A stretch of DNA of 64,000 nucleotides from Dichotomocladium elegans (lineage: Eukaryota > Mucoromycota > Mucoromycetes > Mucorales > Lichtheimiaceae), in NCBI GenBank assembly GCA_025716815.1, contig JAIXMN010000022.1, positions 62,001 through 126,000 on the forward strand, given 5' to 3'. Positions within the stretch are counted from its first letter, which is position 1. The number at the start of each line of letters is the position of its first letter. This document shows, piece after piece, positions 49,623-62,770 of the stretch. The notes under the pieces were generated by a model. It made no database searches. It saw nothing but the letters and a program-made list of their open reading frames with translations, and was not told the origin of the DNA. A program made the position numbers and the translations under genes.

Positions 49623-51071
49623 GCAGTTTTTTTTATCTTACTTCCGGTGATTGATTCCCGACAAAGAGCTGGAGGGTAATCAGTCACTGTCTCTGCAAAA
49701 CTCGTACTTTATTCAGCCGTGATGAGAGTGAAAATAGGAAAGGATGAGAATGAGAAAATGACCTTCATTTGTATTTTGACAGAAGATACCAAAGTAGGAT
49801 GGGTAAGATACAATAATAGGGCAATGATGGGGCTTGTTCGTTACGGTGTGCTCTTCCAGAAAACTTCTTGGATCTTGATGTGGGAGCTGTGCCTCCGAAA
49901 ACTCCCTTGATTACGACAATCATCGTAAGCGTTTACCCACTTGAAACGACCAGTTGAACAAATAGCTAATCTTTAGTTAACGTATCAAGATGGGCGTGCT
50001 CCACCGGAGTTAAAGCATTTGCTTTGTATACTAGGTTTCGATGTTTAAAGGTATCCGCAAAGTACAAAACGTAATCATTCGCTCTGTAGTGTCCCTGGCT
50101 GCATCTACCTCAACACTGAAGATTCCCATTGCCGCTTTGTATATTTTTTAAATCGATGAATCATCGTAGTATTCCAGGTTCATAATACTGCGTGGCTGCA
50201 TCATAAATACATTAGCTAGCGTGATCATGGAGTATGCACTGATGTTACTCCATATTCTTTGAGGATCGATTCACATGCGTACTGTAAATGCGGACGCATT
50301 TTGCCAGAGTGGCATGGATGTGTTAGGTAAGAGCCGCCCTCAGTCAGGTTAAATACTTCTTCACAGTATTGCCTGCTTGAGATCCCATCGATTCCAGAGA
50401 TCACCAAAACAGGCCATCATTTGGTACTTTCCGCAGGGTTGAGATAGTATCGGATTGCGCAGCCCATAAACGCTAGATAGACCTTCCGCTGAATCTCCAC
50501 AATCACAGGGGAATAAGTCTTTAAACTGCTTCAATGGCATTTACACACAAGCTATGTGGCACTCGCCCGTTTGTTCGTTGGAACCCAAGATATAGCCATC
50601 ACCAGAAAGTCCATGGCAAATCGTTGCACCAATGAAAATATTCTTGTTAGATTATTCAGGAGGTAATGCCTTTCTGAACGTATCCATACCAGGCGGCCAT
50701 GGTAACGTTGCTGTGAGAATGTCGTAGTCGTTTTCATCCTCGTTGGTGAAGCTCATTTTGTATGACTTTGCCAATTCACAAAAAAAAAGAAGAACATTGA
50801 TAGGCGTTTAACGCAGTTTGCGGACAGTGGGAATTACACTCTTCATATTCTTCACACTTCTGGCTAACCTTAAATATCCCAAAAATGATCAATTCGATTT
50901 AGATATGAACTCTGAGCGGGCCCGAAGTCAAAGTCTTTGATATTAGCATTCCACCAGGAAGCATATCCACCAGTATGCCGGCTCGCTCCGTCCTTTTGAA
51001 GGATGAACTCCTCCACATCCTCTTTTGTCAATTGGTTGAGTCACCGAAGGAAACTGTCGCTAAGACATTGC
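49623..51071. other. Intergenic region, partly decayed ORFs
   Basis: About 1.4 kb. A minus-strand ATG at about 50757 opens a frame starting MSFTNEDENDYDILTATLPW with stops further on; it could be a decayed gene on the edge of the transposon island. No family recognised. Confidence 0.35.
50405..50757 (-). pseudogene. Decayed unassigned ORF
   Basis: Minus-strand reading frame from ATG at about 50757 (MSFTNEDENDYDILTATLPW, then PPGMDTFRKALPPE) is broken by an in-frame stop after about 35 codons. Reading on gives IFIGATICHGLSGDGYILG and then another stop. The continuity of protein-like sequence through stops suggests a dead gene. Family unknown. Confidence 0.3.
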
Positions 51072-51712
51072 ACATACACTAGTTTTCTAAAATCAAAATC
51101 AAACCTTGCCAGCTTTAAAGTTGTAGGATCACAAAAATAAAAATCGCGTTTTGCCCAGAATACGCATGATGACAAAGCAAATGCCGCACAAAATATGTTT
51201 GGCAGATCCATCTCTTGCTGTTGGCTCTTCTTTCTTTATACACTTTTACATTCTGAAATGAGCAATCTATTTTCTTTTTTACAAAGATGGGCAAGAATAT
51301 ATCGTTGATGAGCATGGCTGTCCTAAACCTTTAGACTAGGTTGTTGATGAAGAAATGTACTCTCTGCAATCCGGTTATTCTCGCACTGAAAATCTGCGTA
51401 GCATATCTTGCAAAGATAGCTCTGAGCTTACTACCACTCACATTCCCCAGCGAAAAGATACAGACATTTCGGATGAAAGAAGCAGGGATCAAGCACAATT
51501 GCACATCGTACACTGACCAAGACAAGGTCAGGTTTTGCATACAGATGTCTGAGAAGGTCTTGAGTGCATCCGTTGCTGGGAACCCATGTTCGTTCAGCCC
51601 AGCGATATGGGCATTGCAGTGCGAGAAGGACCCTGACAGCATTTTAAGAAACGTAGAAGCAGAGGGCCGATCGTGTATTCTCAATGAAGAGCATTTATTG
51701 TTCTAGAATGCA
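51072..51712 (+). mobile_element. Tc1-like transposon fragment, copy R1
   Basis: About 640 bp that is closely similar to 60029-60720 (shared, for example, CTTGCAAAGATAGCTCTGAG and ACCTTGCCAGC). Near its right part, frames read TDQDKVRF, LSASVA and EKDPDSI, resembling the N-terminal helix-turn-helix of Tc1/mariner transposases. It is broken and, relative to the other copy, lacks about 35 bp near 51690. Confidence 0.55.
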
Positions 51713-52151
51713 ATTGTCGCTAAAAATAGCCGTACTCAAAAGAATCCTATATCGAGAAGACTAAGTTTATTCTTGGAAAGAACAAAGAACTATCAGAATG
51801 TGCTTGTCGCTTTTGTCAATGAGCCATTTAGCCTGGGGATTGTAACTCCGAAGCTGGTTATCAAATGGAATAATGAAGTAATGGCTTTCAGGAGACTCCT
51901 GTGTTCTCTGCAATATTCAGAGAAATTATTCATTATATACCTACATTTCCTGAACGTATGGATAAGGATGACAGCAGTGTCGTGTTTTGTTGCGTTGTAA
52001 GAAACTGAGAGAGTACGAAAAGAAGTACAATCTTCCTACACTACACAAGTGCCGGATATGTATCGAATTATTCTTGAGATGGTCTCTTGGAATTACTTGT
52101 TGGAATTGTTTGGGATTTCATTGTTGATTTCAGACCGCCCTCACGTCGATA

Positions 52152-52323
52152 CAGTGGCCGCCCGTTATAGTGATACCCTCGGTTCCAGGAAATCGCATCA
52201 CTATAATGAATTATCACTATAACGAATTGGAATAAGCCCTACCTGGCAATTTTGTTCTTCATAAAGTGTATCGCTATAATGAATTATCATTACAATGAAT
52301 ATCACTGTAACGAGCGGCCACTG
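52152..52323 (+). mobile_element. pogo/Tigger-like MITE, 172 bp
   Basis: Terminal inverted repeats start CAGTGGCCGCCCGTTATAG and end with the near-perfect complement (CGAGCGGCCACTG), flanked by TA on both sides (52150-52151 and 52324-52325), the target duplication of the Tc1/mariner superfamily. Inside are several TTATAGTGAATT/TTACAATGAAT-type subrepeats typical of pogo ends. No coding capacity. It lies 245 bp upstream of the Fanzor start codon. Confidence 0.8.
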
Positions 52324-52567
52324 TAAAACCACATTAAGGAACCCAGTGGGAAAATGAAAAGCACTGTGGAGATGGATCATTGTTGACACTATAAATAGTG
52401 ATGCTCAAGCAAACTGTCCCTTTCCATTATCCACATACAAAACTAGAGCCCATACAGCCTACAGAAAATAACACAGTACCACATTTACGGTTGAAGGTAA
52501 TACGGCCGCTTTCATACTCGTCTCTACGATACTAAGAAATAATATACCCTAGGTCTTCACCCACTAA

Positions 52568-54674
52568 ATGGCCCAACCCCACCGCCCCGTCATTCCCGAA
52601 GGCATGCGCACTGGCCACAACATTGACCGCACTGGCCGTATAATTGGGGTGAAATCGTCCATACGGGCATCGGCTGGCAACAGCAGTACCGTGAACGTCT
52701 GTATCATTTGGTCGACCTTGTCCACAACACCACAACACAGGCGTACGCGTTCGCCAAATATATTTTCATCAACGAGGCAGCGCGCGATCCAAATTTTTAA
52801 TATCCAGGAAAACATCACAGAGAAGTTCTTTTCAGAAGTTTGGCTCTCCATGGTTAACAAAGCCGAACGCCGCACCCAAGGCGAAACTGCCCGCATCCGA
52901 GAACTAATAAATTGCCACAAGGATGAGTACCTTCGGATATCCGAATACGACAGGCCTGCGTTCCCTTATTCCCAGCAATGTTCTTCTTATGAAGGCACCA
53001 AGATTTATACTGCTTACGTGAATAATGCCCACATGCGGTTCGGGCAACACCTTCGGCGTGTCATCAATGTCATCCTGAATCTTCGTCAGCGAAAAGCCGA
53101 CCGCAAGCGAGAGTTAATCGCACAGGGCCTAAGCCCCGATCAAGTACGCCAGGACCTTTATGAAACCATCACCCGGCATGCCACAAGATTCAAGCTAGCA
53201 ATTGCCCGTCGAGGTGTTTTGAGGGAAGACATTAATGCCGAACCTGGATTTCTTCGGGAAGCATACGATATCCTACAGCCTGTTTTAAGCGCTTACCCCC
53301 GAAACCATCAATTACAACACCAGAGTATCTATTACGACGCCAAGGCCAATCCTGTTAAGCATTTCAACGCCTTCTTCCAGCTTGCACGTGTTTGTCAACA
53401 GAACAGAATACGCGGATTCAACTGTTTTCCACTTCGTCGCTCGTGGTCACCATGCTACATGGAGATTGATACGAAAATCCTTTGCTACCATATCCTGGGC
53501 TGCAAAATGGAATCCCACACAACCAATATGGAGTACTGGAGACGTGTTGTAAACCTGAAATCAAGAGCTTCAAACCCCAAGAATCCGGACAGAGATTTGG
53601 CACCCAGAGCGAAGATATCGAGTACGTCACCCTACAGATAGTCCGGAACGAAGACTATAGAGGACAATGGGTCACCATTGATCCTGGCTGAAGGGACCTG
53701 TTGTATTGCGTTCATGAGAACTCTTCACCCGACAACCACCAGACGTTCCGATATACAAAGCAGCTTCAAGATCATACACGCAAGACCAAACGGTACCGCA
53801 GACTCCGAGAACGACTCAAGTTAGAGCGACCCGAGGTCGCGTTGGCTGAGCAGAATCTATCCCAATTTCAAAGTCATACGCTTTCCGTGCCCAACTACGA
53901 CGGATACCTCGCCGCCAAGAACAGGGTCTCTGTAGCTCTCAAGTCTTTCTACGCGACAACCACTACGAACCACCCGAACCCGCAATTTCTTTTTCGAAAA
54001 CTTCGCCTATCAGCGGTTTACAAGGAACAGCAAGCAGATGAAAAGCTTCTCGACTCTTTGAATGCGAAGTTTGGCAGTAGGTCCATTTTCGTGATGGGAA
54101 ATTGGTCTGCGCCGCATACAAGATATCACGAGCCTATCCGTGGTGTCGGCTTCCTGCGGCTGTTGAAGAAGAACAATTGCAATATTTATTTGATCGACGA
54201 GTACAAGACAAGCAAGTGCTGCCCTATATGTGACAATGAAAGCCTTGCTACCTTTAAAATGGTTCCTAATCCACGCCCCTATCGACGACCCGACAATCCG
54301 CTCACGATCTGCCATGGCCTGCTACGGTATGAAGGACGGGGATGTTGTGTTATATTTCCAAAAAGATTTTAATATTTTGACGTTTTAATAGATGCACAAA
54401 TCAAAACTGTACAGCAGGCATGGCAGAGGGTGTTTGTCAACCAAGGTTATGGAACCGGGATCTGGCGGCGGCTCTCAACATGCATCATATCCTCCGGGGT
54501 CTTCGGGAAGATGGTATCATCCCAGCAAGGTTCCAGAGAAGAAATGCTGCACAAGCGTCCGCAGCTGGTGGAAGACCACACTCACCTGAACCAGAGCAGT
54601 GCAGCGTGAGACCACGACGGGCAAGGCCAGGAAGGCCACGAGGTGCACGCTCTGGCGGGTCGAGACGACCGTAA
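52568..54674 (+). pseudogene. Fanzor (eukaryotic TnpB-related OMEGA nuclease), copy 1, broken
   Basis: Near full-length Fanzor, roughly 680 codons. Helical N-terminal part with RPAFPYSQQCSSYEG and MRFGQHLRRVINVILNLRQRK; then FNCFPLRRSWSPCYMEIDTK; RuvC-I VTIDPG (Asp at 53680); IFVMGNWSAPHTRYHEP; RuvC-II region YLIDEYKTSKCCPIC with the first zinc Cys pair; and after a 65-nt intron (54327-54391) the second pair CTNQNC and RuvC-III LWNRDLAAALNM (Asp at 54459). The tail is Arg/Pro/Gly-rich. Damage: frame changes near 52676, 52797 (T run) and 53560, and a TGA at 53689 directly after DPG. Fanzors cut DNA guided by an omega RNA encoded at the element's 3' end. This copy is probably inactive as it stands. 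Confidence 0.85.
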
Positions 54675-54790
54675 CCCCAACCAAGAATTTTCCGTGTCAG
54701 TTATCGCTGACGCACCCAGGATAACCACAGCCCTTCGGGGCAAGCCCCCTTCCTTTGGAAGGACGGTGTGTTGCAAGTCAACGGGATTGA
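54675..54790 (+). ncRNA. Candidate Fanzor omega-RNA scaffold, copy 1
   Basis: Directly after the Fanzor stop. Three hairpins: GTGTCAG-TTATCG-CTGACGC (54694-54713), GCCC-TTCG-GGGC (54730-54741, UUCG tetraloop), and CCTTCC-TTT-GGAAGG (54748-54762). Between the first two is ACCCAGGATAAC. The same hairpin, linker and tetraloop recur in copy 3 at 62527-62579 with base changes that keep pairing. Position at the 3' end fits known Fanzor and TnpB guide RNAs. Ends and any guide segment are not defined. Confidence 0.5.
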
Positions 54791-54794
54791 AGAA

Positions 54795-54923
54795 GGCGTA
54801 ATGTTTTCTGTTGACTAATAGGATTTCATCCATGGATGCGAAATCTTTTTACCTATTGATACGACAAATTTATATAATTCTATGCGACATTTTGCACGAC
54901 ATTTATTTTTGAAAATAAAGTAT
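54795..54923 (+). repeat. Fanzor element right-end block, copy 1
   Basis: Closely matches 62604-62770: both contain CCATGGATGCGAAATC, CCTATTGATACGACAAATTT and end TTTTTGAAAATAAAGTAT. The similarity stops abruptly at 54923, where Tc1 transposase sequence begins. This marks the likely right border of the Fanzor element. Confidence 0.7.
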
Positions 54924-55688
54924 TTGTCCTGGTCCACGTTCCCTTGCATTGTTACTAAGAGGCCCAGCCCTCCGGCATGGGAGCAACCCCAAATTATTAT
55001 TGCACCTATACCATACGTAGGAAGGATATGCTTGCTGTCAAACCTCTTCCCGTCCTTTCTGATGACTCTTACATCACCATCATTGCGATTGAGAAGGAAG
55101 CGAGACTCATCAGACCAAATCACTGTCCTCAAGACTACCATGGTCCACTCGAGCTCAGTACTAGCCCACTCAAGCCTCTCGCTCTTCTGCTAGTCAGTTA
55201 GCGCAGGTTTCATAGCTGGTCTGTAGGAGGAAAACCCGTTGTCTTTGAGCTACCGGCTAGTTGTGCTCATTCTTGCTTCTCCATTTGGAGCATTAACCTG
55301 ATGCGCCTGGTAAGGCTGTAATAAATCTCGACGAACAGAGTGGACCTAGTGGCGCGCAACTTTCTCTGTGAGGATCCTTGGACGTCCAGGAGGTGGTTTG
55401 GCGGGTTGTTTGATTATCAGCGAGGTGCTCGCCGACGATGCCACCAACTGTTCTAATAGGAATGTCAAGTTTCCTGTTGACCTCGGCTTTTGACCATCCA
55501 GCGGAGATTACTAGGGCGCAAATTCTACCCCAAGTAAATGCAACAGCCTTTTTTCGTTTCCTTCTGGGAATGTTCATAATGCTTTAAAGCGGCATGGTAC
55601 AGCGATGATTAAAATGTCGAGAAAAACCAATGGAAAGAAGGAGTGTTTTCAGTATTTGTAGGAATTGAAGTATCACCGGAGAGTACTG
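54924..55688 (-). mobile_element. Tc1-like transposon fragment with broken transposase
   Basis: Minus-strand frames read MNIPRRKRKKAVAFTWG with a helix-turn-helix (WSKAEVNRKLDIPIRTVGGI) and then TVIWSDESRFLLNRNDGDV and GIGAIIIWGCSHAGG, the DDE catalytic start of Tc1 transposases (first Asp in WSDESRF). Frameshifts separate the parts. The outer end at 55688 has a CAGTACTCTCCGGTGATAC terminus followed by TA. The C-terminal half is missing: it stops at the Fanzor right-end block. Confidence 0.75.
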
Positions 55689-56454
55689 TAAAGTAATCGA
55701 TTTCGGAAAGGAGGATAACTCATCATCAGGTATTTTTTTTTCTCACAGAACCTAGTATCTCCTGGGGAACCCCAGCGATATGTAGGTGTAACGTATACGA
55801 TAATGACAAAGTCCCATGCAAAGAAGACAAGGCATGCACGTCAAGAAACGGGAGCGTCAAATGCGATTACAAAATTCTGCATCTGGAGAGGAATAAAAGA
55901 CCAGCTAGGCTGTCCATAAGCGAGGAAGGGGGGCAGGGAGCTGCCAAAGGAAGAGAGGGGTTTTTTTCGAAATCAAGGTAAGACGGGTAATGTCATAAAT
56001 TAAGCTCCGCTTTGCGAGGTCTAATGTTTTCTTTGCATGATAGCCGCCCCTGATCTAATGTCCCAAAAGATGGTAAAAACTCGAGCCGCCAAAGGCGACA
56101 GACGAGGAGAATAGAAAGGAGAATTGAAGGACAAGGAAACTAACAGGACGATGGAACAGACGCCCAGGCGTGATCCCTTTTTCCGCCTTATACATGCGTG
56201 CAGAATCGTGTTCTACTCCTCCTCCTCTTTCCTTTCACCCTCTCCGTACAAGTGGATTAGAACTTGTGCTGGTGGTACGTTGCACCAAATGGAATTTTAA
56301 ATATCCATACATCTTGTTAAAAGAACTCTCGGAGCACACAAAAGCACACCACTCTTCTCCCTCTTGCTCAGAGCTCTTGTTGAGTTCCCCGTCCCATCGC
56401 CACACATCCACCCTCCTCCCTCTCTCGCTAAAACGATACTTCTCCGTACATACC
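55689..56454. promoter_or_regulatory. Upstream region of the RabGAP gene
   Basis: About 770 bp. CT-rich blocks close to the start (56215-56250 and 56395-56445) look like core promoter/leader sequence. An in-frame upstream ATG at 56170 extends the ORF but through this low-complexity leader, so the ATG at 56455 is preferred. Confidence 0.45.
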
Positions 56455-59400
56455 ATGCTGGTTGCCACACCGCCACCTGACTTGGCCCTCAATCGCGCCC
56501 AGAATGACTTGTCAAGAAACGAGATTGAGCCCGCCTTGTCATCATCCGACAATGGCCCAACATTAGCTGAGCGGCGACAGTTAGGATCAACGGAAAAATT
56601 GAGCCTTCAACGCCAGTCGTCGAAGCCGACGCTAGCTCGACTCGAAGAAGCGAATGCTGCTCTTTCGCCTCAGGTACAAAACCTAAAATCCCCCCCATCT
56701 TCTAAAAAAAAATAAACAATTATAAACACAGTCCACACATGAACTTTTTTGGTATGCAATCAGGCTTCAGAGGAGTATCTACTTGCCTGTCTCGAGCGAC
56801 GTCCCCGCAGCGAGCTTATTGACTGCGAAGGTCTCGATGCCGACTTCTTGGCGATCATGGCTGATGAACAACAAAGAGGATCATCTGCTATTGACTGGGA
56901 CTTTTGGCGCTTCGTCATTGACGACTTCAAGACCGCGGCTACACAACTGCCGCACCTCTTGACCACGACGCTGCTTCGCAGTGGAATTCCAGACTGCTTG
57001 CGTGGCGTCGTCTGGCGAGCCATGTCGCAGGCTTCCACAACTCATCTCGAGTCGCTTTACGAAACATTGACGCACGAGCCTTCCACGCCCTACGACCGAG
57101 TCATCGAACGGGATCTTTCGCGCACCTATCCCCAGATCGACCTCTTCAGAACAGACGGCGGCGAGGGCCAATTGGCAATGGGTCGCCTGCTTAAGGCCTA
57201 TAGTATCTACGATGCCCACGTTGGCTATTGTCAGGGTCTTGCCTTTTTGGTTGGGCCCTTGCTGATGAAGGTAATTGAAGTTTAATTACCTCGATCCCCG
57301 CCCCCTCTCCCTCCCCGCCCTCCCTCCACCCCGGCCCGCGCATCCAAACCCCCCAAAGGACCCTCCCCTTGATGACTCTCTCACTTTTCATTTTATTGGG
57401 ATTGACAGATGTCTGAAAAAGATGCCTTTTGTGTATTTGTCAGGTGAGAAAACTATGCCTCCACATGTTGATAGCTATATGGAAAGCCTAACCGCTTCTT
57501 TCACCCAGATTGATGGAGACTTACGGCATGCGGACTATGTTCACGCTCAACATGGAAGGTCTCCACCTCCGCCTCCATCAATTCTCCGTCCTCCTCCAGG
57601 AACTCTGCCCTGAGCTCTCGGCCCATCTCGTTGAGCACGGACTCCATCCGGCCATGTATGCCTCTCAGTGGTTCCTGACTCTTTTTGCTTACACTCTTCC
57701 GATTGATCTTGTGTTCCGTATTTATGACCTCGTCTTTGCAGAGGGCGCCATCGAGACAATCACCCGCCTTGCTGTTGCTGTTATGCTAAAGAACCAGAAA
57801 ACACTACTAGAGATTCGTGATTTTGAGTGTCTGATGATGTACCTATCTTCCCGCAAGCTGTACGAGGAGGCCTTTGACTCTCCTAATGCGGTCATTGAGG
57901 ACACAATGGCATTGTCAACCATCATTACTCGTGCCAAGGTCGATGCGATCCATCTCAACAAAGTTCCGACCGAGACCATCAAGCACCAGATTGAACAGCA
58001 TCAGCAGCAACAACCGCAGCAGCAACTGCAACAACCTAAGCGATCCGCCGTCAGCAAGCGCGAATCATGGTTTGGCTCTTGGCGCCGAACCAGTGGTGAG
58101 ACACATGCTCCTCCTGCGAACCTCACGTCGCCTACAAGCCCTTCCTTCAGCAGTCTCGGCAACGGCAGCAGCAGCAACTTGAGCATAACCAGCCATCATC
58201 ATCAACACAACAGCGATCAGGTTGTCTTGCATCAGCAAATCGAGGATCTCGTGATGGCGCTTTCGCAGCTCCAAAAAGATCATTCGAAGCTTTCGCAGGA
58301 GATGGTGGCAACGAAAATGGAGGCGCTCAATCGCGACACTGAGCGTCTTCGTCTGATCAAGCGCAACGAAATCCTCGAGAAGCGTATCAGAAAATACAAG
58401 TCGAAGCTTGCGTCGCCTAAAGCACCTATACAAGAGCAGGAAGAAGAAGAAGAAGAAGAAGAGCAGCAGGATCGTGAGTTCTCAACCTTCGTGGACTCGC
58501 TTCGCATGAGCGGCGACTTTGGCGCGCTGGTTGCTGGCGCGCTGGCAACGCCGCCGATGTCATCCGAGGAGAAGGAGTTGCTGCAACAACAGCGATCGTC
58601 GCTCACCACCACCACAGCAACGCATCCTGGCATGGCTGCGACTGGCGTTGCAAAGAATGACGGCAACAGTGGAGACGCAGAAGACGACCTAACTGACGAG
58701 CTCGTGAATTACAAGCTTGCGCATGAAGAACTCAAGCAACGGTTCGACGCCCTCTCCTCGCAATATTCCGATTTGATGAATCAAAAAGCAGCAGCTGATG
58801 CCAAAACCAATAGTCTGGCATCCCAGCTGGAAATGCTCCAAAGTGATCTCGAAGCTATTGGGCTGGCGCGCGACCAACTGCTTGAGGAACAGGAAGAGAT
58901 TGAGCAGGAGAATCATGACATGGAAGAGAAGCTGCTGGCGGCGAAAAAGACATCGGCCGAGCTGCAGAGCGAGAAGCTTGCGCTTGTCAAACAGGTCGAG
59001 GCGCTAGAGAAACGGGTAATGAGTCTCGAGCAGGAGAAGCGCGAGTATCTGATGCCGCGCGGTTCCTTCTCTGAAGAAGTATTTGCTGTGCACCATACCC
59101 TTTTTGGATCCAACGAACAGCAGCAGAAGCAGCAACAAGTCAATGGTCATCATAAGAAAGACGTCAGAGGCGAATATGAGCAAAAGTTCGTCGAGAGTGA
59201 ACTTCATTGCCGAGAGCTCGAAAAGCTTCTGGCAGAGACCAAGTTCAAGCTTGCAGAATACGAAGCTGGTATGGCTACCTCTCCCATAGTGTCATCCCAT
59301 CGTCTGTCTCAACCTCCACCTCCCCGTCGCCGGTCGATGCGCAACTCACTCCTGAGTACGATGAGCATGCCTTCTACGCCAAGCTTTGAGCCCAGGGAAT

Positions 59401-59591
59401 CCACCGACAGCATCGGGTCCTATGGGTCGAAGCGCTCGAGCATGTACTCGCGACTCTTTACTGCGCAGTCAATAACAGCCAACTCCAGCACAACAACGCC
59501 CGCATCGAGCGTAGCTATTAAGAGCCCTGTTCTATCATCCTCGCGACCAGAAGACTTGACGGAAGAGGAACTTCGACGCCAGATCCTCTGA
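56455..59591 (+). CDS. GYP5: Gyp5/EVI5-type TBC-domain Rab GTPase-activating protein
   Basis: Four exons (introns at about 56674, 57271 and 57443) give about 945 aa. It stimulates GTP hydrolysis by Rab/Ypt GTPases in ER-Golgi or exocytic traffic. Seen: a disordered N-terminus (start MLVATPPPDLALNR), the TBC domain at about residues 145-370 with the catalytic Arg finger in GIPDCLRGVVW and Gln finger in GYCQGLAFLVGPLL, then MRTMFTLNMEGLHLRLHQF, HGLHPAMYASQWFLTLF and YDLVFAEGAIETI. After it come Gln- and Ser-rich linkers and a long coiled coil (about 560-830). Exon 3 is tiny (MSEKDAFCVFV plus the start of RLMETYG). The C-terminus ends in a short acidic helix (EDLTEEELRRQIL). Confidence 0.93.
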
Positions 59592-60028: not shown

Positions 60029-60905
60029 ACATGCACTATTTTCCAAAATCAAAAGTCGTACCTTGCCAGCTCTAAGTCGCAGGATCACAAAAATAAAAAT
60101 CGCGTTATGCCCAGAATACGCTTGATGACAAAGCAAATGCCACATACGGAAAGATGCCGCACAAAATATGCTTGGCAGATCCATCTCTAGCTGTTGGCTC
60201 TTTCCCTTTTATACACTTTTACATTCTGAAATGAGCCATCTATTTTTTTTTTTTACAAAGATGGGCAAGAATATGTCGTTGATGAGCGTGGCTGTCCTAA
60301 ACCTTTAGACTAGGTTGTTGATGAAGAAATGTACTCTTTGCAATCCGTTTGTTCTCGCACTCAACATCTGCGTAGCATACCTTGCAAAGATAGCTCTGAG
60401 CTTACTACCACACACATTCCCCAGCGAAAGGATACAGACATTCGGATGAAAGAAGCTGGGATCAAGCGCAGTTACACAGCATAAACTGAGCAAGACAAGG
60501 TCAGATTTTTCGGGCGGACGCTTGAGAAGATCTTGGGTGCGTCAGCTGCTAGGTCCCCATATTCGTTCAGCCCAGCGATTGGCATTACAGTACAAGAAGG
60601 ACCCTGACAGCATCTTTAAGAAATCTAACACGGGGAGACCGTTCGCGTATTCTCAATGAAGAGCATAAGCGCATTCTTTTAGAATGCGTTGATGAAGACC
60701 CATCTATTGTTCTAGAGTAGCTGCTTCAACGATCTGAGGGTCTCAAAGCATCTAATACGACGCTCCATCGATTTATGAAAAGGTATGCAACTTGTCATTA
60801 AAAATGGTTCGGTTTCAGCCTATAGACAGGAATAATGCTGCGAAGATCCAAGAGCGCCTTGACTGAGTATGTAGATGGGATAGAACCGACACCGACTTCA
60901 AAAGC
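60029..60905 (+). mobile_element. Tc1-like transposon fragment, copy R2
   Basis: Its first 690 bp match 51072-51712. The right part keeps more of the transposase: TDQDKVRF, LEKILGASAA, then NTTLHRFMKKVCNLS-like and FQPIDRNNAAKIQERLD, DRTDTDFKSC (60750-60905), all with frameshifts and stops. This is the N-terminal DNA-binding region of a Tc1-type transposase of the kind common in Mucorales. At about 60905 it runs straight into an inverted Fanzor fragment. Confidence 0.65.
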
Positions 60906-61582
60906 TGCCGGATGGCGTCGAAAGCTTCCTAAAGATAAGCTGGGTCGTCGGGGATGTCGTCTCTGGATGCGTTTCAACGAGCTACAATCTGCTTAAATGT
61001 TGTTGCGGGTGTAATGATTGTCTGTCGGATGCATTGACTGATTTGTGTCGAGTCCAGACCTTGGCCAATCAGCTGCTCTTCAAGCTCCTCTTTCCGCTGT
61101 CGAATATTCAGCAAGGCATTGATATATAGCCCCCCGAAAATGTTGGCCGAATCGCATTTGAATATTATTGGTGTAAACAACAACCATCTTGGCGCCTCCG
61201 TAATTTGCACATTGCTGGGAGTATGGAAAGGATGGTCGTTCATAATTTGTATATAAGAGGTATGAAGTCGAGTATTCATCAATCAGATTCAGGTATCGAG
61301 TCGTTTCCTCGCCACAGCCACGTCGTTTGTAATCGATCAATGCGAGCCAGACTTCAGCAAAGAATATTTCGTTGATAAAAGCCCTGATGTCAAATTTTCA
61401 TTGGCTTGGAACTCGTGGAGAAAAATGTATTTTGATAGTGCGTATGCATGCATTGTCGTTATATTCACAAGGTCGACCAAATGGTTCAACTTTTCGCGGT
61501 ACTCTTGTCTGTAGCCCATGCTGTCAATGGATGCTTTCACAACCATGGTACGATCGCGGGTTTCGGGTCGATGAACGTTCAT
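60905..61582 (-). pseudogene. Fanzor copy 2, 5' half only, inverted
   Basis: Minus-strand frames line up in order with the N-terminal half of copy 1: start MNVHRPETRDRTMVVKASID, YREKLNHLVDLVNITTMHAY, FAEVWLALIDYKRRG, ERPSFPYSQQCANYGGAK, MRFGQHFRGAI, NALLNIRQRKEELEEQL, ATTFKQIVAR and a further part with stops (DDIPDDPAYL). Frame changes occur near 61345 and 61130, with stops beyond 60974. Everything from before RuvC-I onward is missing at the junction with Tc1 DNA. Sequence divergence from copy 1 is large, so it is not a recent duplicate. Confidence 0.75.
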
Positions 61583-61761
61583 ACTTTGTTGATTGTTTTA
61601 GTATGATAGGTTGTCGATGAAACGAGTATATCAAAGAAAAAGAAAGAGTGAGAGTAAACAAGCGGTTTTCTACGCGAAAGTATATATTATCTATTCTTTC
61701 TTATTTGACTAGTCTCATACAAGCATTCAGATGGTAGGATTAACGGGAAATCAATTATGTA

Positions 61762-61900
61762 CAGTGGTCCCCCCTTATAATGGTAATTCATTGTAGCGAT
61801 ACACTTTACAGAACAAAATCACCAGGTAAGGCTTATTCCAATTCATTATAGTGATGCGATTTCCTGGAACCGAGGGTATCACTATAACAGGCGGCCACTA
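61762..61900 (-). mobile_element. pogo/Tigger-like MITE, 139 bp
   Basis: Reverse-complement relative of the 52152-52323 MITE (shared GATACCCTCGGTTCCAGGAA, read on the minus strand, and GAATTGGAATAAGCC). Termini CAGTGGTCC at 61762 and GCGGCCACTA at 61900, flanked by TA (61760-61761 and 61901-61902). It is 180 bp upstream of the Fanzor copy 2 start, in the same orientation relative to the gene as the copy 1 MITE. Confidence 0.75.
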
Positions 61901-62340
61901 TAACATAAATGCACATCCAATTCTTATCAAGCCGACCTCTGAATACGCCCAATACAGTTTCGTTTCTAACAGCATCACGGACGGTATGTCGATTGCTGAA
62001 ATACACTATGCGAACCGTGTAGGGCCAAAAAACACCAAAATAAACAGTATCAATAAATGATGGAAATCGTCAATGAAACGAGCATGTGACCCGCCGCTGT
62101 ATTTACTGCGGCATCGTTCATCACAAAGAAATTATGCAAGTACTCTCGAATGCAATAACAGGACGTTTCCAAGCTCCTGTACCGATTAAAGTATCAGCGA
62201 GTCGATGAAAAGAGCATATGATCCGCCGCTGTACCTACTGCAGCATGGTTTATCACAAAGAAATTTCTTCTGCTCCTCCTTGATTTCCTATAAATAATGG
62301 ACAACTGAGAAATCTCCTTTCTCCATCGACTTCATCCCGA
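61901..62340. other. Short stretch with a duplicated Cys-motif segment
   Basis: Between the MITE and the Fanzor copy 3 remnant. It holds two copies of a 66-70-bp segment 132 bp apart (listed as a repeat). No intact ORF. Confidence 0.45.
62068..62268 (+). repeat. Duplicated segment encoding a CxYC...HKEI motif
   Basis: Units at about 62068-62135 and 62200-62267 share CCGCCGCTGT and CACAAAGAAATT. Read in one frame they give RRCIYCGIVHHKEI and RRCTYCSMVYHKEI: differences leave the Cys pair, His, Lys and Glu unchanged. This resembles a zinc knuckle at the end of some transposases; source not known. Confidence 0.5.
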
Positions 62341-62348
62341 CCCTCTCT

Positions 62349-62595
62349 TCCATGGTCTTATCCGGTATGATTATTGCAACTAACATCCACTGTCCTTTAT
62401 AGATTAACCAATCGTACCCGTGCTTGATGAGCCATCGAAGAGAGGAGTTCCTGAACACCCTTCCGCTCCTTCCCTCCGCCGCCGCCTGTCCCTTCTGGTG
62501 TGCTGGCTCTCTCCTCCTGTCTCTCCGTCCCGGTTATCGCCGGGACTACCCAGGATAACTCCTGGGTCCTTCGGGGCCCTTGAATGTAAGTTAAA
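62349..62595 (+). pseudogene. Fanzor copy 3, 3'-end remnant with omega-RNA-like hairpins
   Basis: CATGGTCTTATCCG, then a 38-nt intron (62365-62402, gtatga...tttatag) and ATTAACCAATCG correspond exactly to the zinc-finger intron junction of copy 1 (HGLLR|CTNQNC becoming HGLIR|LTNRT). The RuvC-III segment is gone and stops follow. Downstream lie GTCCCGG-TTATCG-CCGGGAC (62527-62546), CCCAGGA-TAAC-TCCTGGG (62549-62566) and a UUCG hairpin with GG-T-CC/GGGCC arms (62565-62578). Confidence 0.65.
62515..62595 (+). ncRNA. Candidate Fanzor omega-RNA scaffold, copy 3
   Basis: Same order as in copy 1: 7-bp stem with TTATCG loop, ACCCAGGATAAC linker, UUCG tetraloop hairpin. Three stem pairs differ by double substitution yet still pair. 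In this copy the linker can itself form a 7-bp hairpin that competes with the base of the tetraloop stem. Confidence 0.42.
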
Positions 62596-62599
62596 GCGT

Positions 62600-62770
62600 A
62601 TGGTGGAGTAGTGTTTTTCTGTTCACTAACGGGTTTTAATCCATGGATGCGAAATCTTTTTTACCTATTGATACGACAAATTTATATAATTCAATGCGGC
62701 ATTTTTTCTTGTATTTTGCACGACATTGCTTTATCTTGTTTACGACATTTTATTTTTGAAAATAAAGTAT
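62600..62770 (+). repeat. Fanzor element right-end block, copy 3
   Basis: Matches 54795-54923 with an internal insertion of about 35 bp (a second GCACGACATT/ACGACATTTT unit). Ends in the same TTTTTGAAAATAAAGTAT at 62770. Confidence 0.68.

Follow-up and report, generated by a model that had tools for sequence, protein, structure and literature searches.

The question raised by the window (the whole stretch of 64,000 nucleotides from Dichotomocladium elegans, order Mucorales, family Lichtheimiaceae, that was analyzed here) is whether the interrupted reading frames at positions 52568-54674 are the remains of an RNA-guided nuclease gene and, if so, what kind of mobile element carries this gene and how the element might profit from it. 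An earlier note had described the locus as a near full-length Fanzor gene that is either a recent casualty or subject to an unusual mode of expression. The reading that we favor, with a probability of roughly 85%, is that the locus is a dead copy of a Tc1/mariner-type element whose intact kin encode a two-exon Fanzor1 protein and a right-end omegaRNA with a flank-derived guide, and that the elements are probably retained by a cut-and-refill process.

The assignment of positions 52568-54674 to a Fanzor1 gene is firmly supported by sequence comparison. The C-terminal half (the piece 53692-54369) matches the Fanzor1 of Parasitella parasitica (PpFz1, PDB 9cf0; PMC11423790) with an E-value of 1.8e-39, far past chance, and SpuFz1 of Spizellomyces with an E-value of 7.1e-19. 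An intact relative on another contig (C24; L034:1501-3402), for which PpFz1 is the closest solved relative, gives 9.5e-120 against PpFz1 (residues 22-506 and 504-623) and 1.7e-43 against SpuFz1 (across residues 39-620), with the catalytic D of DPG and E of DEYKTS aligned between it and the solved Fanzor1 proteins. The match to PpFz1 skips chain residues 1002-1094, probably its FRI insertion, in the numbering that we infer. The identity proposed in the earlier note is thereby borne out, although the profile check suggested there is misleading here when made with Pfam: neither the window pieces nor the intact gene matched a Fanzor/TnpB family above cut-off, and the TnpB zinc-finger model PF07282 reached only 15 bits on the window piece against a cut-off of 26.3, so that the identity rests on the PDB and protein searches. 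The protein search, across 5.8 billion sequences, yielded 115 public relatives of the Fanzor, the best-scoring from Mucor mucedo (47% identity); all those with a named organism are fungal and presumably belong to Mucoromycota or Zoopagomycota. The description of Fanzors as the only RNA-guided nucleases native to eukaryotes holds for DNA endonucleases; as worded it is too broad, Argonautes being RNA-guided RNases.

The published Fanzor1 pattern, D-X(125,275)-[TS][TS]XX-[C4 zinc finger]-X(5,50)-RD (PMC3627910), is recognizable by eye, with no profile involved, as DPG, DEYKTSKCCPIC, CTNQNC and WNRD, the last two being encoded in exon 2; this motif order and the coordinates, from the ATG at 52568 to the last base of the exon-2 stop codon at 54672-54674, were both given correctly before. 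The window gene itself is unremarkable, a dead representative of a type described in 2013, Fanzor1 within Tc/mariner elements (PMC3627910).

Comparison with intact paralogues delineates a broken exon 1 (52568-54326, plus strand), a GT-AG intron of 65 nt (54327-54391) and an exon 2 (54392-54674) that contains the second zinc-ligand pair, CTNQNC, and the RuvC-III motif, WNRD. Exon 1 has an out-of-frame patch near the N-terminus, has lost about 28 residues and carries a nonsense codon immediately after the RuvC-I motif IDPG (53677-53688). The copy is near full-length, as previously noted, in that it covers 602 of the 630 residues of an intact relative, split over two frames: residues 1-341 align at 84% identity and residues 370-630 at 94%, residues 342-369 being missing. 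Because of the frame break, the loss of about 28 residues and the nonsense codon, this copy is unable to make a full Fanzor protein. The reported N-terminal frame changes are thus real, but the single stop codon is in fact two in-frame interruptions, one true nonsense codon and one stop within the intron. The notion of a recent casualty fits, the protein sequence of the C-terminal half being 94-96% identical to that of many intact copies, whereas an unusual expression mode is unneeded, because the second stop is intronic and the remaining lesions are plain decay.

By the criteria of splice borders and reading frame, the second stop, which lies between the two zinc-ligand pairs, sits in a spliceable intron. 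An in-frame stop occurs there in all 32 family copies examined, a non-random sample comprising the copies reached by the best 25 rows each of the C-half and N-half searches of the genome (the counts for intron and exon 2 leave out the locus L070 and include the window copy as L004). The intron starts with GT in 30 of these copies and ends with AG in all 32; exon 2 reads RCTNQNC in 30 and WNRD in 31. Recoding or read-through of this stop instead of splicing might draw on the intron length of 69 nt in 25 of the 32 copies, a multiple of three, but the six copies with 65 nt and the one with 64 nt would then lose the frame, and still WNRD follows in 31 of the 32. Moreover, the genome contains a separate intronless Fanzor family (L001 and L074-L077, on contigs C101, C47, C43, C112 and C37, respectively) that is near-identical and unbroken over the junction: the predicted joining of HGLLR to CTNQNC appears there as continuous HGLLRCTNLNC in L001, L074, L075 and L077 and as HGLLRCTKLNC in L076, and these genes continue to LWNRD with the exception of L077, which has a frame shift further on. 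Given these intron lengths and intronless relatives, recoding is rejected, and we regard it as extremely improbable. About 310 bp downstream of its intronless Fanzor, L076 also contains a frame (L076:3169-4293) that we take to resemble a pogo/Tigger-type DDE transposase.

The intact catalytic gene that the window copy lacks is found elsewhere in the genome. Searches with the C-terminal half gave at least 161 matches (150 of 467 candidates scored) and those with the N-terminal half at least 118 (114 of 547 scored); the best 47 C-half rows are 91-100% identical, the window's own copy counted and some rows being partial. The exon-1 frame is kept in 17 of the 32 copies examined, and in 15 of them the GT-AG borders and an open exon 2 are present as well, which answers the call of the earlier note for an uninterrupted copy. 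Mean dN/dS within the family is 0.224 (171 pairs among 19 open frames, two of them shorter), a low value that may partly mirror selection on source copies, the family copies being young; between subfamilies, the proteins are 57% identical with intact frames, dN being 0.36 against a saturated dS of 2.29. These coding-sequence comparisons demonstrate that the Fanzor protein of this family has been under selection. The identity profile along the element is no help in this respect. Compared with a recent copy, the window copy is 78-82% identical over its left 450 bases and 91-100% identical beyond them; from base 600 up to the ATG, non-coding DNA is conserved at 94-97%, the same level as the gene, and the low identity of the left 450 bases was therefore dropped as proof of selection. 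With the profile set aside, the case for protein-level selection draws on dN/dS and the intact subfamilies.

The element that carries the gene was delimited by copy alignment and by joining its flanks. It spans 3,844 bp (51077-54920, plus strand) between a TA on the left (51075-51076) and a TA on the right (54921-54922); its terminal inverted repeats are short and imperfect, the right one (54902-54920) being self-complementary and lying directly before the TA, and the TA duplication fits Tc1/mariner. The left backbone (51077-51711, plus strand) comprises the terminal repeat and what is left of a Tc1-type transposase, a truncated N-terminal helix-turn-helix (HTH) part after which a stop was read in each of the three copies translated. 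This remnant is the only transposase part in the window copy, which has no DD34E transposase; the element is a non-autonomous Tc1/mariner-type transposon in a dead copy. The backbone is collinear with a second related element in the window (84.7% identity) and with the left end of a large relative on contig C57 (77.3%). A segment upstream of the Fanzor (52150-52295, plus strand) moves with the gene as a cassette: element coordinates 1074-1219 match coordinates 1869-1742 of the second element in reverse at 81.5%. Repeated TATCACTATAATGAATT-like units occur upstream of the Fanzor at 52160-52330, inside this cassette-linked segment. A RabGAP reading frame (57492-59588) neighbours the element.

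When the flanks are joined minus one TA, they align at 75.6% through the junction to an uninterrupted Tc1-type transposase gene elsewhere in the genome (L056), and the minus-strand reading is continuous across the rejoined flanks, which represent the empty site. The element therefore jumped into the gene of another transposon, the decayed front part of which lies at 54923-55583 and the rear part at 50870-51074, both on the minus strand; these fragments were rejected as parts of the element itself. Across the family, TA follows the element at all 33 distinct recognized right ends (34 rows minus a chance reverse-strand match in L014; L016, L027 and L069 have no recognized right end), with a further T in 28 of them, TAC in four and TAA in one, so that a target duplication longer than TA is rejected. 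At the left, A precedes TA at all 27 distinct recognized ends (28 rows, in which the window copy appears twice). The left-end search demanded TA (as TACAC or TAGC near the core), and the TA there is accordingly not independent evidence; outside the 27 stand L007 (ATA by eye), the degraded L026 and L051, and the second element in the window (ATG). The excess of the left A (27/27) over the right T (28/33) gives P = 0.058, and the A could be a target preference of the transposase.

A full transposase is found in a relative of 6,874 bp flanked by TA on both sides (C57:1657823-1664696). Its transposase has an intact frame of 475 amino acids that matches Pfam DDE_3 with an E-value of 1.8e-30, and 34 residues separate the second D from the E, which makes it a DD34E enzyme; a second copy of this region, about 98.2% identical, is present on contig C44. 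The same relative has an intact Fanzor (a 609-aa frame plus exon 2) and a right-end candidate RNA, thus uniting all three components. Matches to the HTH of this type of transposase number at least 150 in the genome (of 1345 candidates, 150 were scored), implying a very large Tc1-type population; in the best 20 rows, the HTH remnant is open over the query stretch. The second element in the window (60034-62767, plus strand, 2,734 bp) has TG in place of the expected TA at its left flank, an HTH remnant on the plus strand and, on the strand opposite to its candidate RNA, an N-terminal Fanzor fragment (60860-61552, minus strand; tblastn E 7.4e-28 at 32.6% identity in a search of this element alone).

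We next consider the right end of the element, where, just past the Fanzor stop codon, the region 54683-54920 constitutes a candidate omegaRNA scaffold. Within it, a covariance model, R1, built from six sequences including this one, scores 84.2 bits at 54683-54744 (plus strand) and captures a 7-bp SL1-like stem-loop with a UUAUCG loop (54694-54713), followed by a UUCG-capped hairpin; the second element contains a corresponding candidate scaffold at 62516-62582 (plus strand, 63.6 bits), likewise a training sequence. In an alignment of ten sequences, 98.6% of the cells of the stem are paired and five of the seven pairs show double changes. No shuffle out of 500 did as well as the real alignment by percentage paired, by double-changed cells or by covariation score; 19 did so by double-changed pairs and 23 by pair types, and with the stem slid, pairing fell to 23-59%. 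For six sequences, counted first, 32 and 308 of 500 shuffles matched the weaker measures. The model shares sequences with these counts; when trained without L078, the right end of the C57 element, it located that sequence with an E-value of 3.3e-12. Furthermore, the exact pattern of loop and cap occurs 22 times in the genome and its reversed control not once. The 242-nt segment of the window folds with a z-score of -2.96 (1 of 200 shuffles as good). Weak R1 matches are found at the Fanzor stop codon in the intronless L001 and L074-L077 (E 7.6e-5 to 0.013), and other weak ones occur in L065 (4.5e-4) and L069 (0.015). A search of 50000-57500 against Rfam at gathering thresholds produced no match.

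The right-end structure is separable from the orientation of the Fanzor. The window element, the second element, the C57 element and L072 share a collinear left backbone and right end, and L068 has the left backbone together with a right-end region of the C57 type. The Fanzor cassette, in contrast, has the forward orientation in the window element and in L072 but the reverse one in the second element and the C57 element, the segment upstream of the Fanzor being reversed with it in the former; in the two reversed cases the RNA is therefore on the opposite strand and not downstream of the Fanzor. An R1 search of L070 revealed no second RNA copy downstream of its Fanzor. Outside the window family, 16 neighbouring pairs of Fanzor and HTH, among the matches listed, comprise 10 in tail-to-tail, one in head-to-head and five in one-strand arrangement. 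In the collinear elements, the candidate RNA keeps its place at the end of the transposon and the Fanzor cassette changes orientation, an arrangement of which we found no description in the portions of the Fanzor literature covered.

Such independence raises the possibility that the structure at the right end acts as DNA, as a binding feature for the transposase or as a transcript end signal, with the Fanzor as a passenger and its guide RNA encoded elsewhere or lost. The structure is present in an element whose Fanzor points away from it, and among the matches listed, with Fanzor rows on the same contig compared, 10 of the 22 pattern occurrences have no Fanzor within 4 kb (11 occurrences have one on the same strand and 1 has one on the opposite strand), and in L068, too, the structure occurs with no Fanzor detected; however, ghost elements of Spizellomyces, too, retain the omegaRNA without the Fanzor (PMC10432273). 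DNA cruciforms would likewise keep pairing, but the loop is kept in most sequences, G-U pairs occur, and the second hairpin is capped by UUCG or UUUG; moreover, no left end of the loci searched with the model gave a strong R1 match. In the full-length fold of the window copy the stem is poorly supported, with an SL1 pair probability of 0.02; in the six relatives folded the probability is 0.81-1.0, apart from two pairs of L025 at 0.39-0.40, and the folds often extend SL1 by an eighth pair, a G-U. Position and stem length, on the other hand, agree with the known Fanzor1 omegaRNAs, all three solved examples of which have a seven-bp SL1 (PMC11423790). Taking both sides together, we consider a DNA-level or terminator role quite unlikely and retain the structure as a candidate omegaRNA scaffold with a covarying stem.

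Under the favored reading, this scaffold would extend across the terminal repeat on the right and the TA duplication, and its 3′ guide would, by analogy, correspond to the neighbouring host DNA to the right of the element. This parallels the Spizellomyces omegaRNA, which spans the right repeat and continues into a variable extension of 14-15 nt (PMC10432273), and the element of the insect virus SfAV, in which the duplication is predicted to lie within the scaffold (PMC10711439). The implied scaffold length of 106-246 nt, counted to the end of the TA, is mostly above the 75-150 nt of known Fanzor1 omegaRNAs (PMC11423790). From the Spizellomyces and SfAV precedents, the guide region of the window copy is predicted at 54923-54942 (plus strand), in flanking DNA past the TA that is a piece of the Tc1 transposase gene (PMC10432273, PMC10711439). 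Such a guide would match the interrupted Tc1 gene, of which the genome contains diverged relatives. With respect to the proposed cycle, a DD34E transposase supplied by relatives would excise elements and insert them at TA; the Fanzor-RNA complex would recognize the emptied site as ATA followed by a match to the guide, and cut it; and repair templated by a chromosome that retains the element would restore the copy. The ATA preceding the insertion agrees with the target-adjacent motif (TAM) ATN of PpFz1, which also shares the seven-bp SL1 (PMC11423790), and resembles the CATA of SpuFz1, whose element has a conserved CA upstream of the left repeat (PMC10432273). RNA-guided activity is in this way predicted for the family.

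It is also conceivable, albeit fairly unlikely in our estimate, that the Fanzor is neutral cargo which is carried along by active Tc1 elements and plays no part in their spread. The elements do transpose at TA and have Tc1-type ends, no Fanzor was detected in many relatives, the HTH remnant keeps its open frame in those best 20 rows, and in the window copy the non-coding DNA ahead of the gene is as conserved as the gene itself. What a mere passenger would not lead one to expect is the dN/dS of 0.22 within the family and the intact frames of proteins that differ as much as those of the subfamilies; besides, the 47 close places among the best rows belong to a Fanzor-bearing family without a full transposase.

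More tentatively, and at somewhat less than even odds, we propose that the omegaRNA belongs to the right end as such and that the Fanzor is a separate cassette, present in either orientation or absent, so that one protein pool would serve in trans the RNAs of many elements, those with only a transposase included. If this is true, the Fanzor would be a genome-wide retention factor for the whole Tc1 population, not part of a cis unit of gene and 3′UTR.

One of the closest described parallels is Spu-1, the SpuFz1 element of Spizellomyces punctatus, which likewise has a Fanzor1 between inverted repeats with a TA duplication (PMC3627910, PMC10432273), conserved bases before the left repeat, an omegaRNA at the right repeat and many ghost copies that have the RNA without the Fanzor. 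In contrast to the D. elegans elements, with their spliced gene, transposase remnant and transposase-bearing relative, Spu-1 is about 2.1 kb long and has a single ORF and, in the published account, no transposase between its repeats, and the separability of the RNA from the Fanzor orientation also sets the D. elegans elements apart from it. The authors of the 2023 Nature study, who noted this lack of a transposase, thought trans help to other transposons possible (PMC10432273). PpFz1 differs in its shorter RNA of 75 nt (PMC11423790). The Mariner elements PGv-1 and PUl-1 are TA-flanked as well and combine a Mariner-like transposase with Fanzor1 in one element, an RNA being unmentioned in the portion of the text covered (PMC3627910). 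The SfAV Fanzor1 element is non-autonomous like the window element, but resides in an insect virus, is present in two copies and has no assigned transposon family (Yoon 2023, PMC10711439).

The family that surrounds the window copy is more interesting than the copy itself in that it combines high copy number, a transposase, a Fanzor and a covarying right end in one genome. How transposons benefit from Fanzor is an open question in the field. Here, a single group of elements offers an intact transposase and Fanzor with a covarying right end, intact Fanzor-only copies (15 of 32) and apparent ghosts, and, these element types being present within one genome, the retention model is directly testable. 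Finally, the arrangement of these elements suggests that the guide RNA goes with the end of the transposon, not with the gene for the nuclease.
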